Shown here piece after piece: positions 53,993 to 61,883 of a stretch of 64,000 bases of DNA; positions within the stretch are counted from its first letter, which is position 1; each line of letters opens with the position of its first letter. Source of the DNA: Malaciobacter molluscorum LMG 25693 (GTDB taxonomy: Bacteria > Campylobacterota > Campylobacteria > Campylobacterales > Arcobacteraceae). The notes under the pieces are model-generated. The model saw nothing but the letters and a program-made list of their open reading frames with translations. It was not told the DNA's origin and did no database searches. Where the stretch lies: the NCBI RefSeq assembly GCF_003544935.1, contig NZ_CP032098.1, positions 2,046,001 to 2,110,000 on the forward strand, read 5' to 3'. A program made the position numbers and the translations under genes.

Positions 53993-54010
53993 AACCTACC
54001 AACTTTGTAT
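53979..54010. terminator. hairpin containing both stop codons of convergent genes
   Basis: ATACAAAGTGGTA pairs with TACCAACTTTGTAT (one bulged A). The stop codons of the VWA-TPR gene and of the convergent lipoprotein gene fall in or beside the loop, and only 3 bp separate the genes. The following U-tract is weak, so terminator function is likely but not certain. Confidence 0.5.
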
Positions 54011-56566
54011 TCTTGATAAAACTTTTTTAGGAATATTATTCTCTTTTTTTAGTTTTTTCATCAATGCAACATATTTTTTATAATATTTTTTTGCCATATC
54101 CATATCATAAATATCATAATAGGCATCACCTAAATTATATAAAGCAACTACTCTATTTGGATATTTATTCACAATTTTTTCTAAGATATAAATAGCTTCA
54201 TTATTTTTTCTTTTTTTATTTAAATAGTATGCAATATTATTGTAATAAGTAACATTGCTTTTACTTAATTTTATATTTCTAAAAAGATTATAAAAATAGA
54301 TTTGGTTATATTTATTTAAATCATTTTTTCTTTTTAGTTTTGTATCATTTTCAATACTTTTTAATAACTCTATTTTATTTAAACTATTTTTTATTTGAGT
54401 GTTTACTCTTTTTATATCTTCAACTGTATCATGATAGTAATTTAGATAACCACACTCTTTTAGTAACTCTTTATAATAGTTAGTATCTTGATATTTATTT
54501 TTTAAATCATCAAAAAACTTTCCATATCCTTTTATTATATAATTTTCATATGTAGTTGAAATATTCCAAGAGTAAGCTCTTTTTGTTTCATGCACTTTTG
54601 TAGAATTATAATTAACTACTTTTGAATTATTTATATCATATAAAGCTAGTTCACTCTTTGCTAACATATATACTATTTTTGATTTGAACTCTTTATTTTT
54701 TGCACGTTTTAATGCTTTTTTAAAATGTTTAATTGATAAATTAATCTTCTTTAATTCATTGTCTTTTTCTTTAAAATAATAATTACTTCTATATACAGTA
54801 GTTAAACTATTTGAATTACCCCAATAACTAAGATTATATAATGCTGTTGCATAAAGATAATTATCCATTGTTGAGTTTGGATTCTTTTTTAAATTATTTT
54901 GAATATCAATTAATTTTTTTATTGTTTCATATAAAGTATATTTTTTTTCAGAATGAACTCTATTATTTCCAACGATATAATTATTAAAAATATTAAACTC
55001 TAGTTTATCTTCTTTTTTTGTTGTTTTCTTAACTCTTTTTAAAGCTTCTTCAAACATTAAATTATTCATTAGAATATTTGTATATGCTAATTTTAGTTCT
55101 ATTCTTACATACTCACTTTTCAAAGTATGAGTTATCATATATTTTTCAAGTTTTGTTTTATTTTGTTTATTTTCTAAAGCTTTTAACTCATTGTATTTTT
55201 CTAAATTAATTGCATTTACATTTGTATAATCTATATTTTTTGATAAAAAATACTTCAACTCATTATTTTGTTTTTTATAAATATCTTTTATTTTATAAAA
55301 TGTATATTTATGAAGTGAATTCTTATTACAAGGTTGTAACATAAGTTTTTCTAACTTTGTTCCAATCTCATCCTCTATTTTTTCATCTATTTTTGTAAGA
55401 TTATTTAAATAGATTATATATTTTAAAGCATTTAGTTCATGAATATCATCTCCACTTACCTCTTTATATGCTTTGTTTAGATATTTTTTTGATACATCAA
55501 TATTTTTTTGGTAAAAATTGAAATAAGCCAATGTCAAATCAACCATATACATATTATCTCTTTTTATACTTTTTAAATAAGAAATAAATGGTTTATAATC
55601 TTTAAATCTTTTTGTTGTTTCGTAATATGAGGGCATTGGGAGATCAAAAAACTCTTGAGAGTTTAAAAGTGTTCTAAATAAAAGCAAATCAAAAAACTTT
55701 GAGTTTTTATCTATTTTTGTAATATTTTTCAACTCTTCTAAAACATTTGCTTTTACATTTAAAGCTCTTATTGTATAAAATTTTATCTTCTCTTCTTTAT
55801 TTTTAGCCATTGATAAAAGTTTATTCCATTGCTCATCTGTTTTTATATATTTAAAATTATAATATGCCAAATGCCAATTATATTTATCTTCACCAAATAA
55901 CTTAGTAAATTCATAAACACCTTTTACTACTTCACCTTTTTTGATTAGCATTCCTGCATAAAGACCTTGAATCCACTCTTTTACTATACTATTTGAGTTT
56001 TTTAATAAATATTTATATTTTTCATATATTTGTAATGTATTGTCTAAATTATTATAATGAGATAATCTAAGTGCTATGAAAAAATATCTTAATTTTAAGT
56101 AATTATTCTTTACTTTATCAACTTCTAAAAGTGCTTCATTTACCATACTTGGTACTTTACTTAAATCAATTTTTTTACCTTTATATCCAAACCTTGAATA
56201 ATAACTTTTCCATGAAGATATATAAGGCTTTTGATACTCTAAAAAATCAATATAATCTCTTATCTCTTCATTTTTTATTTTTGATAGTTCTTTATTTTTA
56301 TAAATAATATCTTCTATTTCTTTTTCAGAATAAAAATTACCAAATTGTGCTTTCCACTCTTTTATATTTTGTTTTTTTATTTCATCATTATACTCATATA
56401 TTAAATCATTATATACTCTACTACTTGTTAAATCACCTGTTATATTTGCAAATTCAAAATTTCTTTTATGCAAAAATCTAAACTGATAATCATCTGGCCA
56501 AAATCCCCCTCCACAAGCTATACTTGTTGTATAAAAAAATACAAATAACAACAATACTCTTAACAA
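53996..56566 (-). CDS. TPR-like lipoprotein of unknown function, full-length copy
   Basis: An 856-residue protein starting at TTG, 6 nt after AAAGGA. A short signal ends in a lipobox, TTSIACGGGFWPDD, giving a lipidated Cys18 and a probable envelope location. The body is helical and repeat-like, consistent with TPR/solenoid structure; a clear TPR unit lies near the end (ALYNLGDAYYDIYDMDMAKK). It is about 95% identical over long blocks to the next gene upstream, with diverged patches near residues 119-165, 305-325 and 645-700. It retains about 137 C-terminal residues missing from the other copy. Function unknown. Confidence 0.82.
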   Translation of the reverse strand: MLRVLLLFVFFYTTSIACGGGFWPDDYQFRFLHKRNFEFANITGDLTSSRVYNDLIYEYNDEIKKQNIKEWKAQFGNFYSEKEIEDIIYKNKELSKIKNEEIRDYIDFLEYQKPYISSWKSYYSRFGYKGKKIDLSKVPSMVNEALLEVDKVKNNYLKLRYFFIALRLSHYNNLDNTLQIYEKYKYLLKNSNSIVKEWIQGLYAGMLIKKGEVVKGVYEFTKLFGEDKYNWHLAYYNFKYIKTDEQWNKLLSMAKNKEEKIKFYTIRALNVKANVLEELKNITKIDKNSKFFDLLLFRTLLNSQEFFDLPMPSYYETTKRFKDYKPFISYLKSIKRDNMYMVDLTLAYFNFYQKNIDVSKKYLNKAYKEVSGDDIHELNALKYIIYLNNLTKIDEKIEDEIGTKLEKLMLQPCNKNSLHKYTFYKIKDIYKKQNNELKYFLSKNIDYTNVNAINLEKYNELKALENKQNKTKLEKYMITHTLKSEYVRIELKLAYTNILMNNLMFEEALKRVKKTTKKEDKLEFNIFNNYIVGNNRVHSEKKYTLYETIKKLIDIQNNLKKNPNSTMDNYLYATALYNLSYWGNSNSLTTVYRSNYYFKEKDNELKKINLSIKHFKKALKRAKNKEFKSKIVYMLAKSELALYDINNSKVVNYNSTKVHETKRAYSWNISTTYENYIIKGYGKFFDDLKNKYQDTNYYKELLKECGYLNYYHDTVEDIKRVNTQIKNSLNKIELLKSIENDTKLKRKNDLNKYNQIYFYNLFRNIKLSKSNVTYYNNIAYYLNKKRKNNEAIYILEKIVNKYPNRVVALYNLGDAYYDIYDMDMAKKYYKKYVALMKKLKKENNIPKKVLSRIQSW

Positions 56567-56613
56567 TATTTATCCTTTTAATATTTTCTCTATTTTATAT
56601 TTATTTTTATACT
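56567..56613 (-). repeat. 47-bp copy of the upstream gene's 3' end (duplication scar)
   Basis: These 47 bp just upstream of the full-length copy are identical to 58822-58868, where they encode the end of the TIM-barrel-type protein (NKYKIEKILKG plus stop). Here the same DNA is read in another frame as the C-terminus and stop of the truncated paralogue (SIKINIK) and supplies the ribosome site of the full-length copy. Confidence 0.9.
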
Positions 56614-58821
56614 ATGTTCATACTGCATAATATCAATTGTATCAAAGTAATATGTTATAAATCCACACTCTTTTAATAACTCTTTATAATAGTTAGTATC
56701 TTGATATTTTTCTTTTAAATCATTAAGAAACTTTCCATATCCATTTTCTATATAATCTTCATAAGTAAAATTAGCTTTTTTTACTTCATAACCTTTTATA
56801 TTACCAATAAGATTTCCATAATCATTTATTATATAATTTTCATGAATAAAATTAGTTTTTATACCAGAATCAATAACTTTTGCATTATTTATATAATATA
56901 AAGCTAGTTCACTCTTTGCTAACATATATACTATTTTTGATTTGAACTCTTTATTTTTTGCACGTTTTAATGCTTTTTTAAAATGTTTAATTGATAAATT
57001 AATCTTCTTTAATTCATTGTCTTTTTCTTTAAAATAATAATTACTTCTATATACAGTAGTTAAACTATTTGAATTACCCCAATAACTAAGATTATATAAT
57101 GCTGTTGCATAAAGATAATTATCCATTGTTGAGTTTGGATTCTTTTTTAAATTATTTTGAATATCAATTAATTTTTTTATTGTTTCATATAAAGTATATT
57201 TTTTTTCAGAATGAACTCTATTATTTCCAACGATATAATTATTAAAAATATTAAACTCTAGTTTATCTTCTTTTTTTGTTGTTTTCTTAACTCTTTTTAA
57301 AGCTTCTTCAAACATTAAATTATTCATTAGAATATTTGTATATGCTAATTTTAGTTCTATTCTTACATACTCACTTTTCAAAGTATGAGTTATCATATAT
57401 TTTTCAAGTTTTGTTTTATTTTGTTTATTTTCTAAAGCTTTTAACTCATTGTATTTTTCTAAATTAATTGCATTTACATTTGTATAATCTATATTTTTTG
57501 ATAAAAAATACTTCAACTCATTATTTTGTTTTTTATAAATATCTTTTATTTTATAAAATGTATATTTATGAAGTGAATTCTTATTACAAGGTTGTAACAT
57601 AAGTTTTTCTAACTTTGTTCCAATCTCATCCTCTATTTTTTCATCTATTTTTGTAAGATTATTTAAATAGATTATATATTTTAAAGCATTTAGTTCATGA
57701 ATATCATCTCCACTTACCTCTTTATATGCTTTGTTTAGATATTTTTTTGATACATCAATATTTTTTTGGTAAAAATTGAAATAAGCCAATGTCAAATCAA
57801 CCATATACATATTATCTCTTTTTATACTTTTCAAATAAGAAATAAATGGCTCATAATTTTTAACTACTTTGGAATCATAATAAAATGGCATAGAAATATC
57901 AAAGAAATCTTGAGAGTTTAAAAGTGTTCTAAATAAAAGCAAATCAAAAAACTTTGAGTTTTTATCTATTTTTGTAATATTTTTCAACTCTTCTAAAACA
58001 TTTGCTTTTACATTTAAAGCTCTTATTGTATAAAATTTTATCTTCTCTTCTTTATTTTTAGCCATTGATAAAAGTTTATTCCATTGCTCATCTGTTTTTA
58101 TATATTTAAAATTATAATATGCCAAATGCCAATTATATTTATCTTCACCAAATAACTTAGTAAATTCATAAACACCTTTTACTACTTCACCTTTTTTGAT
58201 TAGTATTCCTGCATAAAGACCTTGTATCCAATCTTTTACTATACTATTTGAGTTTTTTAATAAATATTTATATTTTTCATATATTTGTAATGTATTGTCT
58301 AAATTATTATAATGTGCAAGTCTTAAAGCAATAAAAAAATATCTAAGTTTTAAATATCTTGAACTTACTGTTTCTACTCTTTTTAAAGCTTTTTTTATTA
58401 CAACTGGAAGTTTGGACATATCAAATTTTACACCTTTATATCCAAACTTTTGGTAATACCATCTATCTGAAGATATATAAGGCTTTTGATACTCTAAAAA
58501 ATCAATATAATCTCTTATCTCTTCATTTTTTATTTTTGATAGTTCTTTATTTTTATAAATAATATCTTCTATTTCTTTTTCAGAATAAAAATTACCAAAT
58601 TGTGCTTTCCACTCTTTTATATTTTGTTTTTTTATTTCATCATTATACTCATATATTAAATCATTATATACTCTACTACTTGTTAAATCACCTGTTATAT
58701 TTGCAAATTCAAAATTTCTTTTATGCAAAAATCTAAACTGATAATCATCTGGCCAAAATCCCCCTCCACAAGCTATACTTGTTGTATAAAAAAATACAAA
58801 TAACAACAATACTCTTAACAA
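56590..58821 (-). CDS. TPR-like lipoprotein paralogue, C-terminally truncated copy
   Basis: A 743-residue duplicate of the next gene. Residues 1-118 are identical, including the TTG start, ribosome site and lipobox (SIACGGG), as is a block of about 315 residues in the middle. Diverged patches include YYQKFGYKGVKFDMSKLP, where the other copy has YYSRFGYKGKKIDLSKVP. The C-terminus departs after KECGFITYYFDTID and runs into out-of-frame DNA copied from the end of the upstream gene, so the final TPR region is lost. It starts 3 nt after the stop of the 311-residue gene, so translation is likely coupled. Possibly functional in truncated form. Confidence 0.82.
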   Translation of the reverse strand: MLRVLLLFVFFYTTSIACGGGFWPDDYQFRFLHKRNFEFANITGDLTSSRVYNDLIYEYNDEIKKQNIKEWKAQFGNFYSEKEIEDIIYKNKELSKIKNEEIRDYIDFLEYQKPYISSDRWYYQKFGYKGVKFDMSKLPVVIKKALKRVETVSSRYLKLRYFFIALRLAHYNNLDNTLQIYEKYKYLLKNSNSIVKDWIQGLYAGILIKKGEVVKGVYEFTKLFGEDKYNWHLAYYNFKYIKTDEQWNKLLSMAKNKEEKIKFYTIRALNVKANVLEELKNITKIDKNSKFFDLLLFRTLLNSQDFFDISMPFYYDSKVVKNYEPFISYLKSIKRDNMYMVDLTLAYFNFYQKNIDVSKKYLNKAYKEVSGDDIHELNALKYIIYLNNLTKIDEKIEDEIGTKLEKLMLQPCNKNSLHKYTFYKIKDIYKKQNNELKYFLSKNIDYTNVNAINLEKYNELKALENKQNKTKLEKYMITHTLKSEYVRIELKLAYTNILMNNLMFEEALKRVKKTTKKEDKLEFNIFNNYIVGNNRVHSEKKYTLYETIKKLIDIQNNLKKNPNSTMDNYLYATALYNLSYWGNSNSLTTVYRSNYYFKEKDNELKKINLSIKHFKKALKRAKNKEFKSKIVYMLAKSELALYYINNAKVIDSGIKTNFIHENYIINDYGNLIGNIKGYEVKKANFTYEDYIENGYGKFLNDLKEKYQDTNYYKELLKECGFITYYFDTIDIMQYEHSIKINIK

Positions 58822-58868
58822 TATTTATCCTTTTAATATTTTCTCTATTTTATATTTATTTTTATACT
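58822..58868 (-). repeat. source copy of the 47-bp repeat
   Basis: Original location of the repeated segment: the 3' end of the 311-residue gene plus the ribosome site of the truncated paralogue. Identity with 56567-56613 stops sharply at 58868. Confidence 0.9.
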
Positions 58869-59760
58869 CTATTGTATAAAAAACTACTTCATCAAATCTA
58901 TTTTTACTAATATTAAAAAAATCATTTAAAGCAACTTTTAAATCATCTAAATTTGAATCTTCAAATCTTAATATATCACCTTTATAAATGTATCTACCTT
59001 TAAAATAAAAACTTTTAGTAACTTCGTAATAATTACTTTTAATTAATTTAAAGTTTTTAAGAAAATCCTGTTTTGTTACACCTTCAAAAATATCAATTGC
59101 CTTTTTTTGTCTAAATTGAATTGCTTGTGAGTACAAAGGTAATGCAAGTTTTAATTTTAGAGGATATTTGTCAAAATTATAATGATATTTTTTTGCAATA
59201 TCATTATCTAATATTGAATTTTTAGTATCAAAATCTGCTATATTAGACATATTATAATACATTAATAAACCATAATCAGCAGGTGGAACTCCTGTTTTAT
59301 AATAATACTTTATTTGATGTAATCGAATAGTTGCGCTTATTTTTTTATTTAAACTTGCTTTTATTCTTTTTAGGAAATCAAAATATTTTGATTTTGACAT
59401 CAAAGACCAGTCACAATCAAATTGGACTTCATCATATACAAAAGGAAGATGTTTTAAATTATTCAACACATTTTCTACTAATTCATCTAGAAAAGCTAAT
59501 TTCATAGCTTTATTTGTAATATATACTACAGGAATAGATAAATTATCTTTAGGTTTAGTTTTAAAATATGTATTTATTACTTCTAATTTATTAGAATAAT
59601 TAATATCCAAAACTTTAATATATAATTTATTGTCTTGTTTTTTCAAAGAAAAACTATTTTTCCAATTATAAAAAGAGTAAGTTAATTGTTTTTTTTGCAT
59701 ATTAAAAACTATAAAAAAAGTCACTAAAATAAAAAAGAATAAAAAAAATATTTTTTTCAT
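58825..59760 (-). CDS. exported TIM-barrel-like protein of unknown function
   Basis: A 311-residue protein with an N-terminal signal or anchor (KKIFFLFFFILVTFFIVF). The middle reads like a glycosidase-type barrel: VYDEVQFDCDWSLMSKSKYF with two acidic residues, ISATIRLHQIKYYYKTGVPP, then ADYGLLMYYNM and KLKLALPLYSQAIQFR. I recall similar proteins in Bacteroidota next to a CGGG-type lipoprotein gene, but cannot confirm it here. It lies 3 nt before the first of the two TPR-like lipoprotein genes; the three form one operon. Enzymatic activity on envelope glycans is a guess. Confidence 0.75.
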   Translation of the reverse strand: MKKIFFLFFFILVTFFIVFNMQKKQLTYSFYNWKNSFSLKKQDNKLYIKVLDINYSNKLEVINTYFKTKPKDNLSIPVVYITNKAMKLAFLDELVENVLNNLKHLPFVYDEVQFDCDWSLMSKSKYFDFLKRIKASLNKKISATIRLHQIKYYYKTGVPPADYGLLMYYNMSNIADFDTKNSILDNDIAKKYHYNFDKYPLKLKLALPLYSQAIQFRQKKAIDIFEGVTKQDFLKNFKLIKSNYYEVTKSFYFKGRYIYKGDILRFEDSNLDDLKVALNDFFNISKNRFDEVVFYTIEYKNKYKIEKILKG

Positions 59761-59919: not shown

Positions 59920-61044
59920 TTAATAATTTTGAGATTTCCTCATTTGCATTAATTCTTTTTGAACTGAAATATTTATTTTTTCATTTGGTTGGAAGTCAAG
60001 TGCATAATTTCTTCCATCATAATCAACAGAATTTAAAATAATTTTAACAGCTTCAAGTCTAGCTTTATGTTTATCATCACTTCTTACAATATGCCAAGGA
60101 GCACTTCTTGAATTAGTTCTTCTTAACATCTCATATTTTTTTTCGGAAAATTCTCCCCATAAATCTTGTGCTTGCATATCAACTTCAGAAAACTTCCATT
60201 GTCTTAAAGGATCATTTATTCTTCTATCAAATCTTCTTTTTTGTTCAGCTTTTGATACAGAGAAATAAAGCTTAATTAATATCATACCTTGTCTTACTAA
60301 ATCTTGTTCAAAATTTACAACATCTTCCATAAAGATTTCATACTCTTCTTGTGTACAAAAGCCAAAGATTGGTTCAACCATTGCTCTATTGTACCAACTT
60401 CTATCAAATAATACTATCTCTCCTCCAGTTGGAAAGTGTTCAATATATCTTTGTAAAAACCATTGATTTTTTTGTGTTTCTGTTGGTTTACCTAAAGCTA
60501 CAATTCTATAATGCTTATTATTCATATATCTTGTAATTCTTCTAATTGCACCACCTTTTCCAGATGCATCTCGACCTTCAAAAAGAATTATCATTCTTTT
60601 ATTTTCATTTTCTAAATAATTTTGTAATTTAATAAGTTCAATTTGGTACTGTTTTAATTCTTCTGCATCATAAAGTTTTTGAATACCATCTTTCAAATTA
60701 TCTTTATCATGCTCTTGAAATTCACCTAAAATACTTTTCATTAAATCATTTTCATCTTTTAATTTTTGTATTTCATCTATATTTTCATTTTTATTATTTA
60801 TTATCTGTTTCATCTCAATATTTGTCTTTTTATCTTCAATAACAATAGAATCTTTAAATTTTTGCATCAAATTTAATGCACTCTTTTTAGTAAGATTATC
60901 TTTTTTTGTATATCCTAAAACTTTTACGTATCTTTTTCTTTCATGCTGAAATCTTGCAATATATTTTTTTCCAAATGTAGGATGAGCTGCTTTAGATACA
61001 TATAATCCACTATAATTTGTCTTTTCAAAATCACTTAAATTCAT
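59920..61044 (-). CDS. ppk2: polyphosphate kinase 2 with an added N-terminal domain
   Basis: A 374-residue PPK2, which transfers phosphate between polyphosphate and nucleotides. The kinase core starts near residue 130: Walker A EGRDASGKGGAIRRITRYM, lid-region GKPTETQKNQWFLQRYIEHF, Walker B IVLFDRSWYNRAMVEPIFGF. The first 75 residues are extra: SGLYVSKAAHPTFGKKYIAR...KRYVKVLGYTKKDNLTKKSA, a pattern like the arm DNA-binding domain of tyrosine integrases; a coiled stretch (about 80-125) joins it to the core. It follows a second PPK2 gene by 2 nt. Confidence 0.92.
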   Translation of the reverse strand: MNLSDFEKTNYSGLYVSKAAHPTFGKKYIARFQHERKRYVKVLGYTKKDNLTKKSALNLMQKFKDSIVIEDKKTNIEMKQIINNKNENIDEIQKLKDENDLMKSILGEFQEHDKDNLKDGIQKLYDAEELKQYQIELIKLQNYLENENKRMIILFEGRDASGKGGAIRRITRYMNNKHYRIVALGKPTETQKNQWFLQRYIEHFPTGGEIVLFDRSWYNRAMVEPIFGFCTQEEYEIFMEDVVNFEQDLVRQGMILIKLYFSVSKAEQKRRFDRRINDPLRQWKFSEVDMQAQDLWGEFSEKKYEMLRRTNSRSAPWHIVRSDDKHKARLEAVKIILNSVDYDGRNYALDFQPNEKINISVQKELMQMRKSQNY

Positions 61045-61046
61045 TG

Positions 61047-61883
61047 TTATTCAGCCTTTGCAAATTTATTTTCTTTTTCCATTAATTCTATTTCTTTACT
61101 ACCAGTAATTACTATGTTTTTATCCACTTTTATTTTTTCTTTTGCAGTTTTATCTGGATATTCAACAGAAGATAAAATATGCTTTATGCAATTTATACGT
61201 GCTTGTTTTTTATCATCACTTCTTATTACTGTCCATGGTGCAATATCTGTATTTGATGCCATAAGCATTGAGAATTTTGCAACTGTATATTTATCCCATA
61301 ATTTTTGAGACTCTTTATCAACAGGAGATAATTTATATTGTTTCAAAGGATCAATTTCTCTTTTTTTAAACCTTCTTGCTTGTTCTTTTTTAGATACAGA
61401 AATATAAAACTTTAAAAGTATAATTTCTGATTTTACAAGCATTTGTTCAAATTCTGGTACTTCTTTTAAGAACTCATGATGTTCTTCTGTTGTACAAAAT
61501 CCCATAACTGGTTCAACACCTGCTCTGTTATACCAGCTTCTATCAAATAAAACTATTTCTCCAGCACTTGGTAGATGTTTTGTGTACCTTTGGAAATACC
61601 ACTGAGTCTTTTCAATATCACTTGGTTTTTCTAAAGCTACAACTCTTGCTCCCCTAGGATTTAAGTGTTCTGTAATTCTTTTTATAGTTCCACCTTTACC
61701 AGCAGCATCTCTACCTTCAAAGATTAATAAAACTTTTAATCCCTTCTCTTTAACGTAATTTTGGAATTTTAAAAGTTCAATTTGTAATAATCTTAATTCT
61801 CTCTCATATTGAACTTTCTCTTTTTTAACCCAAATACGTATTTTTTCACCTTTTTTGTTTTTTTCGTCATCTTCCTCTAACAT
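61047..61883 (-). CDS. ppk2: polyphosphate kinase 2, standard form
   Basis: A 278-residue PPK2 with Walker A EGRDAAGKGGTIKRITEHLN, EKPSDIEKTQWYFQRYTKHL, Walker B IVLFDRSWYNRAGVEPVMGF and the REIDPLKQYKLSPVD segment. It lacks the N-terminal addition of its tandem partner and begins with a charged helix. The two cores are clearly homologous but well diverged, so the duplication is old or the genes have separate origins; they may use different nucleotides (NDP or NMP). It lies 15 nt after nspC in the same direction. Confidence 0.94.
   Translation of the reverse strand: MLEEDDEKNKKGEKIRIWVKKEKVQYERELRLLQIELLKFQNYVKEKGLKVLLIFEGRDAAGKGGTIKRITEHLNPRGARVVALEKPSDIEKTQWYFQRYTKHLPSAGEIVLFDRSWYNRAGVEPVMGFCTTEEHHEFLKEVPEFEQMLVKSEIILLKFYISVSKKEQARRFKKREIDPLKQYKLSPVDKESQKLWDKYTVAKFSMLMASNTDIAPWTVIRSDDKKQARINCIKHILSSVEYPDKTAKEKIKVDKNIVITGSKEIELMEKENKFAKAE

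Follow-up and report, generated by a model that had tools for sequence, protein, structure and literature searches.

The 64,000-nucleotide stretch of DNA analysed here (the window) is part of a 2.8-Mb Arcobacteraceae genome assembled as a single contig. On its minus strand lie three consecutive genes, C, B and A, of which B and A are homologous; a search of the whole genome with the A-type protein returned two matches only, B and A themselves. The genes, the two sites of a 47-bp repeat derived from the end of C, and the segments over which A and B are identical or diverged are collected in the table below. At 59920-61883, two adjoining genes of one family, polyphosphate kinase 2-like by inspection, have DNA segments that are 62-73% similar and look like an older tandem duplication.

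Features of the C-B-A locus (positions in the window; A and B mark the paired segments of the two copies)
Feature	Position	Strand	Description	Basis
Gene C	58825..59760	-	311 aa, uncharacterised family, hydrophobic segment at the N-terminus; the copied tail derives from its 3' end	ORF
C tail, original site	58822..58868	-	Final 14 codons of C, its stop and 3 further nt; bears the AAAGGA ribosome site of B	Identity with 56567-56613
Gene B	56590..58821	-	743 aa, core-length copy, signal-peptide/lipobox-like N-terminus	ORF; orthologue in Arcobacter sp. CECT 8985
C tail, copied	56567..56613	-	Closes B (end and stop, read in another frame); ribosome site of A	Identity; homologous junction in G004
Gene A	53996..56566	-	856 aa, long copy, C-terminal TPR-like extension of ~130 aa	ORF
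Identity tract 1, 401 bp, includes the 47 bp	A 56213..56613; B 58468-58868	-	Attributed to gene conversion	
Diverged island 1	A 56060..56212; B 58315-58467	-	Copy-specific in both species	
Identity tract 3, 296 bp	A 55653..55948; B 57908-58203	-		
Diverged island 2	A 55574..55652; B 57832-57907	-	Copy-specific in both species	
Identity tract 4, 936 bp	A 54638..55573; B 56896-57831	-		
Copy-specific 3' part of B	56614..56895	-	B-only internal repeat and short filler before the C tail	

Both A and B begin with a signal-peptide-like segment and carry a cysteine conserved across the family, features consistent with putative lipoproteins, the lipobox being non-canonical by inspection. None of A, B and C could be assigned confidently to a family in Pfam or NCBIfam. 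In A, Pfam matches to TPR families at residues 773-841 fell below the gathering score, the best reaching 24.8 bits where 30.1 was required; this place is matched by several TPR families, in A only and not in B. The TPR-like extension (53996-54400) is common to A, its relatives in the genus and one further genome (G038), and is lacking from core-length Arcobacteraceae genes, in whose genomes segments resembling it occur at unrelated loci. Structure prediction gave a good model of A, with an all-helical solenoid fold (pLDDT 85). The structures matching it are helical solenoids of a generic kind, at TM-scores of ~0.1-0.25, and therefore no function is claimed from them. The predicted solenoid, together with the TPR-like C-terminus, makes a role as an envelope-anchored protein-binding scaffold plausible. 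A search of PDB sequences yielded one match for A, to VapC, which was weak and set aside as unconvincing, and none for C. For C, the structural model is of low quality (pLDDT 48) and the Pfam matches are all sub-threshold; DUF3142 is among those seen in the C family, being matched by 2 of 16 members at E 0.01 or weaker and not by the C of the window. C is present in 34 of 104 genomes of the family, and its constant position upstream of an A/B-type gene in many of them, usually directly so, suggests that the two share a function.

The 47 bp preceding A (56567-56613) and those preceding B (58822-58868) are identical at 47 of 47 positions, a match far beyond chance that breaks off at the next base upstream. 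At the original site, 58825-58868 encodes the final residues and stop of C (...YKNKYKIEKILKG*). At the second site, 56590-56613 is read in a different frame, as the ...S-IKINIK* end of B, and 56567-56589 contains AAAGGA directly before the TTG start of A. The first-pass annotation had recorded the identity, the use of two reading frames and the provision of the next ribosome site, and all three are borne out by the sequence comparison and the ORFs. A longer stretch of identity, 401 bp in all (56613-56213 against 58868-58468), has these 47 bp at its upstream end and reaches into both genes, so only the upstream edge of the 56567-56613 interval is a true edge.

The same arrangement was found in a second species, Arcobacter sp. 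CECT 8985 (G004), where the order is again C-B-A and the spacer between B and A holds a copy of the C tail. Unrelated intergenic sequence in relatives with the two genes had been named in the first-pass annotation as the finding that would speak against its reading; instead, this spacer matches the genome's own C tail in 47 of 52 alignment columns, compared with 17 of 37 before the junction. A derivation of the tail as the continuation of A itself was rejected because the G004 match to C is far better. In two species, the end of the duplicated unit is joined to its own beginning, with the C tail repeated after B, and B and A are adjacent homologous copies in the same orientation, as expected of a tandem duplication. 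The shared gene order and junction indicate that the tail was copied in the original duplication, before the two species separated. Within B, directly before the tail, lies a filler of ~18-24 nt (ATGCAGTAT), which matches neither A nor C clearly and precedes the C tail in both species; the junction is thus not a clean two-part fusion, which counts against the explanation that we favour below. A link between this filler and the start (MQYFG...) of the gene 3' of the core-length form in other genera was dropped because the match is too short. At 56712-56860, B contains an internal tandem repeat of ~81 nt (NYIINDYGNLIGNIK / DYIENGYGKFLNDLK), absent from A and present in the B of G004.

To place the duplication, six genomes of the genus were compared (the window genome, G000, and G001-G005). 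Both copies occur in the window genome and in G004, two species only, with the G004 contigs breaking inside A. G005, G003 and G002 have a single copy, as does G001, where C is followed by the gene start and the gene is split over two contigs. Nine flanking genes gave the species tree ((G000,G005),G004),(G003,(G002,G001)) with full bootstrap support. In the outgroups G003 and G002, C is followed by one long gene. Because G005 branches inside the clade of the window species and G004, the duplication predates the G005 branch. Separate tandem duplications of the gene are seen outside the genus (L065, 1298-7531; L064, 2199-7395): G008 has a C-gene-C-gene array and G017 two adjoining copies, with 57% and 50% protein identity between copies. 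No C tail lies at the junction between the G017 copies; copying of the tail is thus not a general feature.

Over 2,229 aligned bases, A and B of the window differ at 151, and these differences are packed into islands of ~64-80% identity that separate identical runs of 401, 83, 296 and 936 bp. The longest concordant run covers 153 of 415 variable sites and did not exceed 33 in 10,000 permutations (p ~1e-4, the floor for that number of permutations); by this test, the identity tracts are clustered beyond chance. In islands 1 and 2, the A copies of the window and G004 group together (support of 0.997-1.000), as do the two B copies, and the copy-specific 3' parts likewise pair A with A and B with B. 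Outside the tracts, within which A and B of the window are identical, islands 1 and 2 as well as the 3' part thus preserve states that were specific to each copy before the species split. The tracts are B-type from ~+26 to +350 and from ~+600 onwards, and A-type from ~+500 to +600; the simplest reading is several conversion events in both directions. Some short segments at codons ~161-200 have exchanged types, which one conversion event does not explain. This mosaic, with islands that are copy-specific in both species, argues that the perfect identity of the 47 bp is a product of later gene conversion and not of recent duplication. In G004, the two C tails have diverged from each other, unlike the perfect pair in the window.

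These results recast two proposals of the first-pass annotation. It had taken the 47 bp to fix the left edge of the duplicated unit; the unit did begin inside the 3' end of C, and the junction recurs in a second species, but since the G004 tails have diverged and the 47 bp sit inside a 401-bp conversion tract, their perfect identity neither dates nor defines the duplication. It had also seen in them how B acquired its end. The stop of B does lie in the copied C tail, but its present frame was not set by the duplication: B ends in SIKINIK* in the window and in SKK* in G004, owing to a one-base difference in length. The description of B as truncated holds in comparison with A but not for the family, in which genes outside the genus mostly measure ~690-730 aa and stop at about the same place, and B is a complete core. 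Every member of the genus whose 3' end is complete or readable has the long form, as does G038, and B therefore most likely descends from it, having lost the C-terminal extension at duplication. The dN/dS between the B genes of the window and G004 is 0.28 (~0.27-0.28 for both copies), a value that takes in converted sequence, with imprecise values of 0.65-0.93 in the short unconverted parts, and indicates that B has been kept by purifying selection, to which A is subject as well.

Comparison with relatives had been proposed as a way of finding the single-copy ancestor, and here the closest single-copy relative misleads. The gene of G005 is mostly B-type in two stretches (codons 105-160 and 306-340), and beyond ~codon 640 the A-type prevails. 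A gene that starts like B and ends like A points to secondary collapse, not to the ancestral state, and the species tree together with this chimeric gene indicates that G005 most likely lost the segment between the copies through recombination between B and A.

Three known processes acting in turn, tandem duplication, gene conversion and the collapse in G005, very probably account for the locus. The shared junction, the mosaic, the copy-specific islands and the chimera are seen directly in the sequences; we infer the order of events, recombination as their agent and the exact ancestral edges as follows. In the common ancestor with G004, a tandem duplication would have taken in a unit running from ~50 bp before the stop of C to ~codon 735 of a long A-type gene. 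The upstream copy, B, would have lost the C-terminal extension, with the copied C tail closing B and supplying the ribosome site of A. The copies would then have diverged, and in the window lineage gene conversion would repeatedly have homogenised much of their length, with copy-specific islands surviving; the perfect 47 bp would be the upstream end of conversion, halting where homology between the two sites stops. In the sister species G005, recombination of B with A would have deleted the intervening segment to leave one chimeric gene.

A simpler history would be a single recent tandem duplication, with the 47 bp marking its edge and the differences arising as later mutations. The 47-bp identity and the long perfect tracts are what it would leave, but the differences are clustered in islands shared copy by copy with G004, which already has both copies and the junction, and we give this history almost no credence. 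Nor is it at all likely that the window species and G004 duplicated the gene independently and that G005 is the true single-copy ancestor. G005 is the closest relative and has a single gene, and the unrelated tandem duplications in G017 and G008 show that the gene can duplicate more than once in the family; against this, the C-tail junction, the filler and the B-only internal repeat are common to both species, and the G005 gene is a B/A chimera.

The idea that B is not a shortened duplicate but an ancient gene of core length, acquired from another part of the family, would fit the position of its end, which coincides with that of core-length genes in other genera. Unconverted B is, however, far closer to the A genes of the clade than A is to core-length genes (~45% protein identity), and the stop of B lies inside the copied C tail, making such an origin very improbable. 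Long perfect repeats can confuse assembly, and the G004 contigs do break inside A; yet the window genome is one contig, 151 sites distinguish its copies and the arrangement recurs in a second genome, so that an assembly artefact is hardly credible. Duplication, conversion and collapse in succession remains our preferred account.

The end of C itself carries a further possible trace of exchange. C of the window ends in KYKIEKILKG, whereas the other C proteins compared (~30 distinct tails) have KY[ND]L- or KF[ND]L-type sequence there. At four sites between -24 and +24 of the junction, the B-A junction of G004 differs from both the C-B junction of G004 and G005 and matches the window. These sites suggest the junction copy as donor and the end of C as overwritten; every site with the reverse pattern in this interval is also explicable by a change private to the A copy of G004. 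The junction copy, freed of the coding constraint on C, would have evolved in its roles of closing B and providing the ribosome site for A, and may then have been copied back into C by gene conversion, rewriting the conserved C-terminus of an unrelated neighbour. We put this forward tentatively, as somewhat less probable than not, and C may instead have drifted in place. The DNA of C is 81% identical to its G005 orthologue, compared with 90-97% for other flanking genes, so C evolves unusually fast.

Tandem duplications that create a hybrid gene at their junction, and collapse by recombination between direct repeats, are known systems. As in the former, the unit here starts in a neighbouring gene and a truncated copy is joined to unrelated sequence at the junction; it differs in that the tail taken from the neighbour is read in another frame and, besides, provides a ribosome site. 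As in the latter, one relative has lost the segment between the repeats. No paper on this C-B-A locus was found in the literature.

Recurrent and very long-lasting concerted evolution of prokaryote paralogues by gene conversion has been reported (PMC6053082). Here too, each paralogue resembles its partner in the same genome more closely, over long tracts, than it does the orthologue of a related species; the homogenisation seen here differs from that described there in being partial and confined to one tandem pair in one small clade.

The processes at this locus are well known and belong to ordinary genome evolution, and no general open question hangs on it; the locus is an unusually legible, clean example of them. 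It offers a compact case in which the identity of a repeat can mislead about age, with an edge that is old, an identity that is recent and a single-copy relative that is derived. If the copying back into C did occur, it would mean that a duplicated scrap of a neighbouring gene can return and alter the neighbour's protein.
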